Assembly: GCF_000963965.1 (NCBI RefSeq)
Contig: NZ_BAMX01000006.1
Coordinates: 124,001 to 188,000 of the forward strand
Origin: Acetobacter orientalis
Lineage (GTDB): Bacteria > Pseudomonadota > Alphaproteobacteria > Acetobacterales > Acetobacteraceae
Reading direction: 5' to 3'
Length of the DNA stretch: 64,000 nucleotides
Below the pieces are notes generated by a model. That model saw only the letters and a program-made list of their open reading frames with translations, was not told the DNA's origin and did not search any database. Of the stretch, positions 42,807-48,040 are shown one piece after another (within the stretch, counting starts at the first letter, position 1; every line of letters starts with the position of its first letter). The position numbers and the translations under genes are program-made.

Positions 42807-44966
42807 TTATTTGTTTTTCAATTTTGCATCCCATGCGGCGCGTATTTCTGCCGGGGTCATGTGGTGGGGTTTGGCTGCAGGTTTGGGCGTTGCCTGTTTT
42901 TTGGTTTTAGGCTGTGTGGCTTTGGCTTTTTGGCTGCCCTTAGCAACTGTGCCGCCTTTTGTGCCAGGTGCGTGAGAGAGTGCGCCGGGGGCTATGCCAG
43001 CGGCGGGGTTATTATTAACCTCTTGCACAGCGCGGCTGCATAAAGACTTATCACCCACGCCAAACTGGATGGTGGGCAAGAGGGCGAGAGGAGGGAACAC
43101 AAACCCAAGCCCTGCTGCGGCTGCGGCTCTTCCTAAAATTTCTGCCCCCGGCAAAACAGTGGGTGATTTAAGGTGCCCATTGATATGAAACGCACCGGGG
43201 AGCGAGGCAATGGTTAGGCCTTGTGAGCGTGTTGTAAGCGCATAATCGAGTGTGTTGTTGCGAAAATTGATTGTGCCTTGGCCTAAAGTGCGCGCCTCAC
43301 CTGTTTCGAGCAGTAAGGTGTTGGTTGAGGCAATGCCATTTTTAAGCGGCATATCGGCAATAAAGCATTTTATGTCTGTATGCGCAGGCAGGCCCAAAGC
43401 ACTTAAAATGGCGTTACCCAGTTGTAGGCCCAGAATATTGGGTAGAATAGCAGTAATATCGCCCCCTTGGTCGAGCACCAACGTAAGGCCACCATTACCC
43501 GCAGCCATAAGGCTGGCAATGGAGTTACCTTTTGCTTTCAACGTCATATGGCCGCCAATAATACCGCGGGCTTTTGAATCTGCTGTGGCCTGCATAATGC
43601 GGGCAAGGTCTATACGGGCAAAGTCTATTTTGGCGTCTGTATTAAAGAGTTTGCCGTCGGGTTTGAGTGTGGCTGCACTGGCCAGAGTACCGTTACCCAC
43701 AGCAAAATTGAGCCGTTTTAGGGTAATGGCACCGTCAGTTATAAAAAACTCTGCGTCTATATTATCGAGTGGTAGTTTTTTGTTTTCAATGTGTGCACCT
43801 TTATAGGTGACGTGCGCATTAATAGCGTTGAGCTTGGGAATATTAATGGGGGTATCGGGCAGAACCGTGTTGCTTTTGGCTTCTGCTTTTTCTTCAGCTT
43901 TTGTTTTGCTGGGTTTGGCACCAATAAAGCCACCAAGGTCAACCAGATCAACCTGTTTTGAAAACAGGTTGGCGTCTACAGAGAGTGGTTTGTTGTGCGG
44001 GTCTACGGTAATGGTGCCGCCAATATCGCTTTGACCCATTTTGCCCTGAAACTCTTTAAACGTAATATGTGTAGGCGTGTAATCGAGCATGCCGGTTACG
44101 TTGTAAGCGGGAGTGCGCGGAATAGGCACACCTGTAAGCGGGTACAGCAAAGACATGTCTGGCCCTGCAAAATGTAATTTTAACTGTGCACCACCCAAAA
44201 CAAGAGGGTGCTCAATCTGGCCTTGTAGGCGTGCTGTGGTGGGGCCGTTCTGAACGTGTAAATCAACTGGGTAGGGGTTTGTGTCTGCCACAAAAGACAG
44301 AAGCGCACCGCCAATAAACTGGGCTGTAATAGGCTGCTGCGCGTAGCGGCCTTTGGCGTTTACGGTAATGGTGCCACGGCTTCTGCCTTCGGGGGGCGTT
44401 GTCTGCACAGCCATGGTCATATCTGCCTGAAGGGGGGCATGCTGTAGGTGCAGGGTGCCAGAGGTTATGCGTAGCTCACCAATTTCTGGCAGGGTTATTT
44501 TAGTGTTTGGTTCAGCGTTTGCGCTTTTGGGGGCCTCTTTGCCATCTTCTGTAAACGTGTAGTTATTCACACCATCTTTGCGGGCCAGAATATCAAGCTG
44601 TGGGGTATCAAGCGCAATAAGGGGCAGCCGCAGCGTGTGGTGCCATAGGTAAGACCAGACATCGAGTGAGACACTTAAGCTCTTGGCCTCTGCAAACGGG
44701 GCTTTTTCTTGTGCAAAAGTTTGGGGCTGCTCACTGTGTAGCCCTTCTACACGCACCGTGGTGACCCGGCCTAGCGCAACATGCAGGTGGGTTATGGTCG
44801 TTTTACGGTGCAGAAATGCTGTAGCGCGGCTATTAACCAAAGGCACAAACCAGTCCCAAGACCAAAAGACAATAAGCAGCACCAAGGCCAGAGCAAAACA
44901 GGCCAAGCCAGTTAAAACGGGGTGCTTTTTGGCGGGGCTAAGAAGTTGGGGTGTTTGTGTGGTCAT
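42807..44966 (-). CDS. AsmA family envelope protein
   Basis: The 719-residue protein is anchored by one N-terminal helix (VLTGLACFALALVLLIVFWS) and has a long periplasmic domain of the AsmA type, now seen as a lipid-transport bridge family (with TamB and YhdP) that carries phospholipid between the membranes. The C-terminal region GLTIASLPGAFHINGHLKSP and LGFVFPPLALLPTIQFG are typical. A lysine, alanine and proline-rich tail (TKKQATPKPAAKP) ends in HHMTPAEIRAAWDAKLKNK, which looks like an added motif. ATG 44966 has GGAGGG upstream. Confidence 0.9.
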   Translation of the reverse strand: MTTQTPQLLSPAKKHPVLTGLACFALALVLLIVFWSWDWFVPLVNSRATAFLHRKTTITHLHVALGRVTTVRVEGLHSEQPQTFAQEKAPFAEAKSLSVSLDVWSYLWHHTLRLPLIALDTPQLDILARKDGVNNYTFTEDGKEAPKSANAEPNTKITLPEIGELRITSGTLHLQHAPLQADMTMAVQTTPPEGRSRGTITVNAKGRYAQQPITAQFIGGALLSFVADTNPYPVDLHVQNGPTTARLQGQIEHPLVLGGAQLKLHFAGPDMSLLYPLTGVPIPRTPAYNVTGMLDYTPTHITFKEFQGKMGQSDIGGTITVDPHNKPLSVDANLFSKQVDLVDLGGFIGAKPSKTKAEEKAEAKSNTVLPDTPINIPKLNAINAHVTYKGAHIENKKLPLDNIDAEFFITDGAITLKRLNFAVGNGTLASAATLKPDGKLFNTDAKIDFARIDLARIMQATADSKARGIIGGHMTLKAKGNSIASLMAAGNGGLTLVLDQGGDITAILPNILGLQLGNAILSALGLPAHTDIKCFIADMPLKNGIASTNTLLLETGEARTLGQGTINFRNNTLDYALTTRSQGLTIASLPGAFHINGHLKSPTVLPGAEILGRAAAAAGLGFVFPPLALLPTIQFGVGDKSLCSRAVQEVNNNPAAGIAPGALSHAPGTKGGTVAKGSQKAKATQPKTKKQATPKPAAKPHHMTPAEIRAAWDAKLKNK

Positions 44967-45116: not shown

Positions 45117-47918
45117 TTAGCCGAAGGCGCCTATTTCATGCATAATGGCAACACTAATCTCGTGCATAAGCTCGTAAAGCTGACGCATCGGAATAAAGAT
45201 TGTCTGATGCTCGCGGTTATACAGGCTTTCTTCACGCAGGCCTGTGGGTTCATGAAAATCGAGAGTGGAGACGGTCGTTCCTGCAGAGAAAATGGTGTCC
45301 ATTTCTTGCAAGACCCCCGGTATGTCTAGGCACAGAATTTGCTGCATCATAACATCGTGGTTAAAGCCGCTGCGGGGCATAAAGTAAGGTATATTGCAGG
45401 CCAGCAACCAAATGCGCTCAATCAGGGCAATACGTATGGCATGCAGCGCGCGCAGCCTGTCTGAGCCATGGGGGGCATCTTCCCATGCTTCGCGCACGGC
45501 AAGGTGGTCTGCCTGAATACGGCGGAACATGGCGTGCAGGTCTGAGGAGAACCCGAGTTTTTCAAGGTCTTTCATAATAGCAAGAAAGGCCGTGCGCTGG
45601 TGCCGCTGTGGGGCATGCGTTGCGCGGTCTAGCCAGAAATCTGGGTCGAGCAGGTGAATAACGGATTTTAACACCCGGTCATCTGATACGGTGAGCGCAT
45701 GGCGTGCGAAGTCGAGCGCTCTGTGAAAGCGCGGGCTTGAGGTATTGAACGTTTCAAACGTTTCGGGGTGGCGCAGTATGGCAGCGCCAAGGCCCTGTAG
45801 CGTGTTAGCGCACCAGCCAAGCTGTTGCAGAATGGCGTTATTAGGTATGGCGCGTAGCTGGCTGGGGTGGCTGATACGGCTACGGTTTGCGCTTTCTGCA
45901 CTCTGGCGTGCAGGGGGGCGGGAGCCTGTGCGGTCTATAAGGGCAGGGCCAAAGGCCCCCAGCAAGGCGGCATAGCCGGGGTCTTCAACAAGGCGTGTCA
46001 TGCCTTCGGCAATGCTTGAGAAAAAGTCTGATGAAAAATCAGGCTGCTCATATACCGGGTCTGCTTCGGCCTGAAGCGGCGTGAACAGGTACTCGGCAAT
46101 GGTTGCCACCGTGGCCCCGGCTAGGTCTGGGGTGCCAAAGAGCAGGTAGCCGTCGCCTCCCTGAAAAGCGGTTTCTTCTCGGCAGACCATGCCGGAGGCT
46201 GCAAATTTGGCGCGGGTATAGTGGGGTGAGAGGTAGCTTAACCGGTCAGAAAGCCTAAAGGGGTGCGCCCCACGGCCAATACTTTCACCATGCGTGTCAA
46301 AAAACACGACGGTAATGTCTTTTAAGCCCCATTGTGCCAACAGGTCATGAATGCGCAGGCGCAGGCGCTCAATAAGGTTAGTGGCGGCAAGCTGGCCAAT
46401 ATAACGCCCCGAGTCTGAATACCCGAACTGGAAGCAGATACGCCCCATGCGCTGCACATAAGCGCGCCATGCGGGGGAGCGTAGGGCTTCTTCTACAATG
46501 CGGTCGCCATTTTTCATGGCGTCTTCTGTTTCAAAGAGGGGGGAAATTTCTAGCTTGTCGGCAATGCCAAAATAGTGAGCCGCCCATAGAGCAGACAGTA
46601 ACGTGTAACCGCTTTCTGTTTCGGCAATTAGAAACCGGACTGGTGTGTCAGAATCGATATGTTTGAGAATCTGCGCCACTGTCATCATTAAGCGGCCAGC
46701 GGTTGAGGGGTCACCTAACAAAGACCCAAAGTCGACCGGTACGGGTTTTACCTGTTCCAGCGCCTCGTTTACGCGGGCGAGTAGGGCGCGGCGGTGGGCT
46801 GGGTTATCTGGGGTGTCCAGAATGTCCAGCTTTTGGCGTACAAAATTATGCACCTGTGTGGCGTTAAGGCGCACATGGGTGTGCGCTAGTGCCAAGCCGT
46901 GCGCTAAAAAGCCTGCGCGTGCTACAGCAAGCGGCAGTTGTGCCGCTTGGGGGGCAGCGTCAATAAGGGCTTGCAGATCTGTTGCTAGGTCAGACGCGGC
47001 GGTGAGTGCTGTGCCGTGGCTATTCACCAGTTTATCTGCAAACTCGGCTACCGCTTGGGGGCATGGGCTGTCTGGCGTGGCGTCAATTTGGCCACACACG
47101 CAGGTAATGGCTTGGTTAAGCCGTGTATGTAGGGCGGTGGCAGCAGGGGCATGCTGGGTAAGGTGGTGTTTAAGGCGCTCTAGTTGAAACAATTTCATAC
47201 GCAGGCGCAGGCGTAGCGTGTCCCACCAGCCAATATCTGTGCGGCCGTCTGTGTCGTAGCCAACCCAGCTTGTGGCAATAATGGGGGTAGGGGCAAGAGT
47301 TTGCCACTCGGTTGGCCATTCTTGCCGGGCGGTGCTGAGCAGCACAGCGTTAAGCTGGTCCATAGCATCACGCGCGCGGGTGATGGCTTGTGTGGCCAGC
47401 GTGAATTCTTCGTTCAGGGTTGGTGGGGCTACCCTGCGGTGGGTTTCAAAAAAAGGTGCTGTTTCGGGCAAAAGCGGTTGAGAAGCGCACTCAGCCAGTG
47501 CGCTGTAAACCGTGTTATCCAGTGCAAAGGTGGGGTGTGCGGTAAAGACCGCAGCAAAGCGCGTGGGGGTAAGGGCCGCATTAAAGGCTTGGGCTGTATG
47601 CTCAGGCAGGCTGGCAATAAGCTGGGCGGTACTCTCATGCAGCCTTTGCTGGGTGCTTTGGGGTGTTGTGCCACCAACATAGCGGTGCAGGCGGCCTGCG
47701 CGGCGCAGAAACGCGGTATCACGTATGCGCTGTATCTGTTTGGTAATGTCTTGCGTATGCAAAGTGCCGGTTGCAAGGGCATGGGCAACGCTTTGTGCCG
47801 CAGCGGTTACGGGGTTTGAGGTCTCAATACAGACCGCATCTTCTGGGGTGTTAAGGAGCGGTCTAAGGAATGCTTGAAACGCTTCAGGGAAAACCGAGAG
47901 GTCAAAACGAGGAGCCAT
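45117..47918 (-). CDS. divergent phosphoenolpyruvate carboxylase-like protein
   Basis: The 933-residue protein spans the whole PEP carboxylase fold. Kept features are the catalytic-histidine motif TAHPTF (H128), ISPLFET and FGYSDS with the two metal-ligand acids, IGRG (R549) and the GSRP and LRAIP motifs. Unlike the E. coli enzyme, YSDSAKDAG reads YSDSGRYIG, the FHGRGGTIGRG loop reads FDTHGESIGRG at 540-550, and the C-terminal RNTG is replaced by EIGAFG. Start ATG 47918 is chosen over an upstream TTG. It may be an unusual carboxylase or a paralogue with another role. Confidence 0.82.
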   Translation of the reverse strand: MAPRFDLSVFPEAFQAFLRPLLNTPEDAVCIETSNPVTAAAQSVAHALATGTLHTQDITKQIQRIRDTAFLRRAGRLHRYVGGTTPQSTQQRLHESTAQLIASLPEHTAQAFNAALTPTRFAAVFTAHPTFALDNTVYSALAECASQPLLPETAPFFETHRRVAPPTLNEEFTLATQAITRARDAMDQLNAVLLSTARQEWPTEWQTLAPTPIIATSWVGYDTDGRTDIGWWDTLRLRLRMKLFQLERLKHHLTQHAPAATALHTRLNQAITCVCGQIDATPDSPCPQAVAEFADKLVNSHGTALTAASDLATDLQALIDAAPQAAQLPLAVARAGFLAHGLALAHTHVRLNATQVHNFVRQKLDILDTPDNPAHRRALLARVNEALEQVKPVPVDFGSLLGDPSTAGRLMMTVAQILKHIDSDTPVRFLIAETESGYTLLSALWAAHYFGIADKLEISPLFETEDAMKNGDRIVEEALRSPAWRAYVQRMGRICFQFGYSDSGRYIGQLAATNLIERLRLRIHDLLAQWGLKDITVVFFDTHGESIGRGAHPFRLSDRLSYLSPHYTRAKFAASGMVCREETAFQGGDGYLLFGTPDLAGATVATIAEYLFTPLQAEADPVYEQPDFSSDFFSSIAEGMTRLVEDPGYAALLGAFGPALIDRTGSRPPARQSAESANRSRISHPSQLRAIPNNAILQQLGWCANTLQGLGAAILRHPETFETFNTSSPRFHRALDFARHALTVSDDRVLKSVIHLLDPDFWLDRATHAPQRHQRTAFLAIMKDLEKLGFSSDLHAMFRRIQADHLAVREAWEDAPHGSDRLRALHAIRIALIERIWLLACNIPYFMPRSGFNHDVMMQQILCLDIPGVLQEMDTIFSAGTTVSTLDFHEPTGLREESLYNREHQTIFIPMRQLYELMHEISVAIMHEIGAFG

Positions 47919-48040
47919 CTGCAATTACACTTATTGTTGTTAGGCAAAGGTTAGAAAGAACAGTTTCATGTCTGGGCCTACTCAGCAACAGGCTTCACGC
48001 ACTCTTGGGGTGAAAGGCTGAGAGTGCTATCGAGTTAAGC

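Follow-up and report, generated by a model that had tools for sequence, protein, structure and literature searches.

A divergent clade of phosphoenolpyruvate carboxylase homologues with a rebuilt catalytic loop in Acetobacter orientalis and other Alphaproteobacteria

The stretch analysed here (the window) comprises 64,000 nucleotides of Acetobacter orientalis DNA, positions 124,001 to 188,000 of contig NZ_BAMX01000006.1, and carries on its minus strand a reading frame for a homologue of phosphoenolpyruvate (PEP) carboxylase (PEPC). A preliminary description of this DNA took the product for a PEPC homologue that appears to keep the fold and the metal ligands but has a changed catalytic loop and no C-terminal RNTG. 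The strings on which it relied are all present in the translation: FTAHPTF, YSDSGRYIG, FDTHGESIGRG and a C-terminus that ends in HEIGAFG without RNTG. The reading frame (open reading frame, ORF) and its diagnostic segments are given below in window coordinates, with the equivalent residues of Escherichia coli PEPC.

45117..47924, minus strand: divergent PEP carboxylase ORF, 935 residues from a TTG start at 47924; an alternative ATG at 47918 gives 933 residues
47526..47549, minus strand: VFTAHPTF, residues 126-133; H130 corresponds to H138 and is retained
47241..47270, minus strand: SWVGYDTDGR, residues 219-228; W220 corresponds to W248 and is retained, and R228 stands in place of N256
46863..46883, minus strand: strand around R352, which corresponds to R396 and is retained; H350 stands in place of D394
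46527..46541, minus strand: PLFET, residues 462-466; E465 corresponds to the metal ligand E506
46395..46421, minus strand: YSDSGRYIG, residues 502-510; D504 corresponds to the metal ligand D543, with R507 for K546 and Y508 for D547
46269..46301, minus strand: altered catalytic loop FDTHGESIGRG, residues 542-552; D543 for H579, H545 for R581 and E547 for G583, with R551 (R587) retained
45906..45926, minus strand: GSRPPAR, residues 667-673; R669 corresponds to R699 and is retained
45843..45857, minus strand: LRAIP, residues 690-694; R691 corresponds to R713 and is retained, and the following NNAILQQLG is unlike WIFAWTQNR of E. coli
45120..45137, minus strand: C-terminus EIGAFG, where canonical PEPC has RNTG; the inhibitor-site residue N881 (Asn) is absent

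The window protein scored 56.5 bits against the Pfam family PEPcase (PF00311), above the gathering cut-off of 22.4, and 61.2 bits against the NCBI equivalog for canonical PEPC (NF000584, PRK00009), for which the cut-off is 815. It therefore passes the threshold of the superfamily and not that of the canonical enzyme. A PF00311 search of the 2.9-Mb assembly found it as the sole protein of the family, so that the second, canonical ppc for which the preliminary description had proposed a search was not found there. At E 0.001 the same genome yielded no match to archaeal-type PEPC (PF14010). The nearest named relative, from A. cibinongensis, is 80% identical.

Relatives were collected in two ways. 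A scan of named genomes gave 121 loci, of which the best 80 were fetched by similarity, without use of a motif. A set of 61 non-redundant sequences was chosen by the pattern THG[ED]SxGRG, by which the invariance of T544, H545, G546, E/D547, S548, G550, R551 and G552 is wholly or partly built in; the motif-independent checks are the 80 fetched loci, 46 weak-scoring loci of the class, 23 loci of the genus and an alignment of 53 sequences. A profile of the 61 divergent sequences was aligned with one of 26 canonical PEPCs, including that of E. coli (hhalign, local mode), and the two matched with a probability of 99.6 and E 1e-23 at an identity of about 18%.

No gap interrupts this alignment in the catalytic loop, where F578..G588 pairs with F542..G552, and this contradicts the suggestion in the preliminary description that the loop might be two residues shorter. 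H579 is replaced by D543, G580 by T544, R581 by H545 and G583 by E547. The histidine that was previously numbered H543 is present as H545, but it occupies the place of R581 and not that of H579. Replacements of R581 and K546 are additions to the changes listed earlier. The H579 position is Asp, Asn or Ser in 49, 11 and 1 of the 61 sequences, Asn and Ser occurring in more distant members. Arg at the positions of K546 and N256, both outside the picking pattern, was found in 61/61 and again in 80/80 of the similarity-fetched loci. The clade also differs from canonical PEPC in having Glu or Asp for G583, His for D394 and Gln for M538. Neither of the canonical equivalog features, FHGRGG with H579 and R581 and the lysine K546 of YSDSxKDxG, occurs in the window protein or in any of the 80 loci. 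At the aspartate-inhibitor site K773 and N881 are replaced and R832 falls in an unaligned stretch, the C-terminal alignment being weak.

Other parts of the active site are shared with canonical PEPC. In E. coli numbering H138, W248, R396, E506, D543, R699 and R713 are each retained in 61/61 sequences, and so is R587, which lies inside the picking pattern; Q613 is also shared. In 53 similarity-fetched relatives that were aligned without motif choice, E465, D504, H130, R352, R551, R669 and R691 of the window protein are invariant. In the whole alignment the two clades share 41 nearly invariant columns, and 17 others are fixed differently, among them D394 (H350), M538 (Q499) and R581. The roles of these residues are assumed here from the E. 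coli enzyme: R587 and H138 presumably belong to the carboxyphosphate and carboxylation steps, R396, R699 and R713 presumably bind phosphate, and K546, H579 and R581 are presumably needed for the handling of PEP and bicarbonate. A mechanism that involves metal ligands and a flexible loop bearing a conserved histidine has been described in general terms (PMC10176493).

An AlphaFold2 model of the window protein (pLDDT 87.4, pTM 0.90) matched E. coli PEPC with Mn2+ and a substrate analogue (1jqn) at Z 28.8 and rmsd 4.8 over 748 residues, and maize PEPC (5vyj) at Z 29.1. Archaeal-type PEPC (3odm) followed at Z 16.0 over 466 residues, and the remaining barrels had Z <=10.8. The Foldseek TM score to 1jqn was 0.58, and the domain arrangement may therefore differ somewhat. 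The model indicates that the full-length fold of canonical bacterial PEPC (EC 4.1.1.31, PF00311; E. coli Ppc, 1jqn/1fiy) is retained together with its metal ligands, as the preliminary description had supposed. Archaeal-type PEPC shares part of this fold, its 3odm chain having 529 residues compared with 935 in the window protein.

The altered loop was read in 80/80 of the close homologues, whose alignment the preliminary description had called for. The patterns FDTHG[ED]S[IVM]GRG, [YF]SDSGR and WVG[YF]DTDGR each occur in all 80 loci, which come from Acetobacter, Gluconacetobacter, Novacetimonas, Commensalibacter, Acidisoma, Rhodopila and other Acetobacteraceae, from two genomes labelled Rhizobiaceae or Hyphomicrobiales, and from several metagenome-assembled genomes with wider labels, one of them named Nitrosovibrio. 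The loop was also present in 23/23 fetched loci of the window's genus and in 41/46 weak-scoring PF00311 loci of the class. In these 41, which likewise have Arg for K546 and N256, the H579 position is Asp, Asn or Ser, and one loop has Ala in place of Ser; five of the 46 are a different kind of protein. In a rough tree of 62 sequences, whose core alignment brings together very distant sequences, the 30 divergent members form one clade with support of 0.90 on a stem of 2.0 substitutions per site. The ratio dN/dS (Nei-Gojobori) was about 0.046 and 0.042 in the close pairs L004/L005 and L007/L009; in pairs involving the window gene silent sites are saturated or nearly so. Long open frames were found in nearly all members read, a few being shorter (such as L081, L154, G483 and G525). 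Such strong purifying selection, together with the open frame, disfavours a pseudogene. The altered loop is a property of a whole clade and not of a singular protein, nor is it the product of chance or local decay. The idea of a singular or degenerate enzyme, raised in the preliminary description, does not agree with a loop common to relatives, the lack of a second ppc in the genome and purifying selection.

A single weak PF00311 match, with no canonical match beside it, was found in each of 37/37 genomes of the window's genus, and in 18/18 genomes made up of chosen relatives and the window's own. PF00311 was matched in 105 of 150 Acetobacteraceae genomes, by score with the divergent kind only in 102, both kinds in two and the canonical kind only in one; pyruvate carboxylase is present in eight and ATP-dependent PEP carboxykinase (PEPCK) in 91. 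Archaeal-type PEPC had no PF14010 match over the cut-off in these 150 genomes and is ruled out as their true anaplerotic enzyme. Among the Acetobacteraceae that lack PEPCK, pyruvate carboxylase and canonical PEPC, 50/55 have the divergent gene, and its association with PEPCK over the 150 genomes is negative (Fisher P 1e-6, with kinship ignored and 'divergent' assigned by score). A glyoxylate shunt was considered for the window's own genome and rejected: the lone isocitrate-lyase-family match reaches 44 bits, over the cut-off, but covers 86/526 positions in a frame of 318 residues, and it is taken to be probably another member of the superfamily and no proper isocitrate lyase.

In a sample of the class 101/385 genomes have PF00311, 37 canonical by score, about 56 divergent and nine odd or fragmentary, one genome with both kinds being counted twice (Fisher P 0.03); of the 56, 40 were checked for the motif, one is the window's own, one has THGEAVGRG and 14 were assigned by score only. 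In a sample of the phylum strong matches occurred in 29/398 genomes, every one in the window's class. Copies on plasmids or large replicons were found in Methylobacterium bullatum, Sphingobium, Phyllobacterium and Burkholderia pyrrocinia, and those of B. pyrrocinia and Phyllobacterium zundukense already carry a PEP carboxylase annotation. The B. pyrrocinia copy (L204 7893-10685, NZ_CP150851.1) lies on an 848-kb plasmid and is 51% identical to the window protein, which shows transfer out of the Alphaproteobacteria.

In some of these genera the gene stands in an informative setting. In P. zundukense it directly follows sucC-sucD (CoA-ligase beta and alpha) with a one-base overlap, in an oxalate-use region with formyl-CoA transferase, a TPP enzyme and an oxalate/formate antiporter, and with glyoxylate carboligase nearby. 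CoA-ligase beta and alpha genes also lie directly upstream in 4/4 sampled genomes of one further genus, which is the independent find here, the queries of the neighbour searches having been taken from the named loci and so matching themselves. For the beta subunit from one genome of that genus, the score of 558.6 as a succinate-CoA ligase exceeds the cut-off of 370 and that of 550.8 as a malate-CoA ligase falls short of the 604 needed, so that its substrate may be either. In Sphingobium a gap of ~440 bases separates the gene from an upstream row of a 2-hydroxyacid dehydrogenase, an APH-type kinase, enolase and a FAH-family gene, enolase being the second gene upstream. In B. pyrrocinia a D-glycerate dehydrogenase gene comes after the divergent gene, and a RraA-family gene is also a neighbour. 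These CoA-ligase, enolase and D-glycerate dehydrogenase settings, a minority of loci, fit a step from PEP to oxaloacetate.

Some of these settings are similar to that of the serine-cycle PEPC of the Methylobacterium/Methylosinus Ppc1 type, which is likewise found beside CoA-ligase or D-glycerate dehydrogenase. A comparison cluster in Paracoccus aminovorans (L209) consists of aminotransferase, malate-CoA ligase beta, sucD, D-glycerate dehydrogenase, canonical ppc and glyA. Unlike the divergent clade, its PEPC retains FHGRGG, and the M. bullatum record has one canonical and one divergent copy. Ppc1 is described as having two inhibitor-site residues changed (PMC3615186; see also PMC2680597 and PMC11665112), and archaeal-type PEPC has been reported to be without inhibitor-site residues (PMC8100219). 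Section 9 of the latter paper names four PEPC types, and such a clade is not mentioned in that section. No description of the altered loop or of the clade was found in the open-access literature searched, most subscription papers lying outside that search.

PEPC has been recorded in acetic acid bacteria. Its activity was assayed with a NADH-coupled kit in a parent and a mutant strain of Gluconacetobacter xylinus (PMC4047042), and a commercial purified Acetobacter PEPC was inhibited by aspartate and malate (PMC5259782). The gene ppc is annotated in Acetobacter and Gluconobacter (PMC3751514, PMC6915089, PMC9729256, PMC6191907), and metabolic models of acetic acid bacteria assign EC 4.1.1.31 to it (PMC6915089, PMC9729256). 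An oxaloacetate decarboxylase of A. xylinum is also cited (PMC8100219, PMC4047042). The reading in the preliminary description would have been refuted by a loop shared throughout the acetic acid bacteria together with measured normal activity. The loop is indeed present in every acetic acid bacterium read, and normal activity is on record only for the G. xylinus strain pair and the commercial enzyme, neither of which is tied to the gene. Carboxylation of PEP in A. xylinum was reportedly also treated by Benziman in 1969.

PEPC converts PEP and bicarbonate to oxaloacetate and phosphate in a Mg-dependent reaction. We consider that the window gene probably encodes a functional PEP carboxylase belonging to a subfamily of its own, found mainly in Alphaproteobacteria, with a probability of about 0.8, because the metal and arginine frame is kept, the rebuilt shell is constant, the gene is under selection, its distribution complements that of other enzymes and its context fits in some genera. 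The novelty lies in how the active site is built and not in the reaction, the name PEP carboxylase being already known. The barrel, the E465/D504 metal site, H130, R352, R551, R669 and R691 would do their canonical jobs, holding Mg-PEP, passing phosphate to bicarbonate and setting CO2 free beside the enolate. The second shell for bicarbonate and phosphate, made of K546, H579 and R581 in E. coli, would be rebuilt as R507, D/N543 and H545, perhaps assisted by the new invariant R228. More tentatively, the carboxyphosphate step might be served by R228 of the SWVGYDxDGR loop and by H545 and E547 in place of R581, K546 and H579, a second and independently tuned hold on bicarbonate. The clade possibly accepts CO2, or functions at the low pH inside acetic acid bacterial cells, and may have an allostery of its own; since the aspartate site is gone, its control would have to differ. 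In acetic acid bacteria the protein would be the PEPC that feeds the tricarboxylic acid (TCA) cycle, and in some other genera the gene has been brought into clusters for C1/C2 assimilation.

A number of observations weigh against a functional carboxylase. All three residues presumed to handle PEP and bicarbonate are replaced. The active-site loops are less surely modelled, with pLDDT 67-76 at 221-230, 501-510 and 541-560 and about 40 at 671-680. The published activity is that of whole strains of G. xylinus (PMC4047042) or of a commercial enzyme (PMC5259782) and is not linked to this gene, and K. xylinus is represented here only through its nearest named relatives, Novacetimonas. Inhibition of the Acetobacter enzyme by aspartate (PMC5259782) is hard to reconcile with the loss of K773 and N881, unless it acts at the active site or the product stems from another gene. 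Expression of ppc in G. oxydans was described as rather low and the gene as perhaps unimportant (PMC6191907). The window's own genome has PEPCK, so the divergent PEPC need not be the sole C3-to-C4 route there. Five of the 55 Acetobacteraceae genomes without the alternatives (G476, G515, G520, G549 and G554) lack matches to PF00311, ATP-PEPCK and PYC_OADA, malic enzyme lying outside this search. Canonical and divergent PEPC occur together in L205 (NZ_LR743510.1, M. bullatum) and L208 (AP027342.1, Sphingobium), on the same record in both organisms, and in G319, G517 and G468; the two proteins therefore need not share one job. Neighbours linked to C3/C4 metabolism were found in 4/24 distant loci (three extra genomes of the CoA-ligase genus uncounted), and among the 80 similarity-fetched loci only L034 has any such match, a dehydrogenase. 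Unguided clustering of neighbours, which used mechanical ORFs and recovered the gene itself in 32/38 loci only, found no neighbour common to more than three distant loci.

Some loop mutants of E. coli PEPC are phosphatase-like, and mutant work ties the loop to the coupling of phosphate transfer with carboxylation. This, and the replacement of K546, H579 and R581, would suit a protein that binds PEP and has lost efficient carboxylation, its main activity being that of a pyruvate-forming enzyme or of a PEP phosphatase dependent on bicarbonate. We regard this as unlikely, as R587 and H138 are retained, the CoA-ligase and enolase neighbours suggest oxaloacetate as the product and PEPC activity has been reported in G. 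xylinus (PMC4047042). The Mg-enolate site might instead serve a different enol substrate or run in the reverse sense, for example in oxaloacetate decarboxylation. The 17 positions fixed differently (R581 included), the cited decarboxylase of A. xylinum (PMC8100219, PMC4047042), the RraA-family neighbour in Burkholderia, the FAH-family neighbour in Sphingobium and the co-occurrence with canonical PEPC are in line with such a change. Retention of R396, R699 and R713 argues for a phosphorylated substrate, and in Sphingobium the PEP-making enolase lies close upstream, so that this alternative seems equally improbable. The suggestion in the preliminary description that the enzyme does something else is likewise disfavoured by the context in other genera and by the activity published for acetic acid bacteria (PMC4047042, PMC5259782). 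A decayed or non-enzymatic remnant is very improbable: similarity to canonical PEPC is low and one release annotated the ppc of A. pasteurianus 386B with a frameshift (PMC6915089), a further point against function, but two close pairs are under purifying selection, the rebuilt site is in 80/80 similarity-fetched loci and nearly all members read have long open frames.

A functional PEPC of this kind would bear on the metabolic models of acetic acid bacteria that assign EC 4.1.1.31 to ppc, and the clade may provide PEPCs with different inhibition for engineering. To our knowledge, models of PEPC catalysis treat the FHGRGG loop and the lysine of YSDSxKDxG as universal. A large natural clade without both features, in a group with measured PEPC activity, would allow residue roles to be tested against evolution and not against crippled mutants.

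The neighbours of the gene in the window (AsmA family, DUF445 and SUF genes) are uninformative on its function. DUF445 and SUF genes are conserved neighbours within the Acetobacteraceae and were considered as a functional clue, but they look like plain synteny. The AsmA-family gene is the following.

42807-44966, minus strand, the same as the PEPC gene and about 150 bases downstream of it: AsmA-family gene (PF05170)

Five further loci, all from Alphaproteobacteria with genomes of 1.8-2.6 Mb, encode PEPC-like proteins that are very distant and about 1000-1160 residues long: L140 (G340), L141 (G146), L143 (G046), L157 (G420) and L179 (G344). They are a good match neither to the canonical nor to the divergent clade. 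L140 bears FHGRGRGDSRGG, and L141, L143, L157 and L179 are without a GRG loop by the patterns applied. The HPT motif of this group begins as TMHPT, TAHPT, TQHPT or TSHPT, and L157 has two such proteins in tandem. At L186 (575-4754), genes above the cut-off as parts of a 2-aminoethylphosphonate ABC transporter (phnS2, phnU2) lie close to the CoA-ligase and PEPC genes. Some FAH-family proteins act on oxaloacetate; one such family member (L208 13549-14514) adjoins the divergent PEPC gene of Sphingobium, and another (L207 6906-7679) lies about 12 kb from that of Phyllobacterium.

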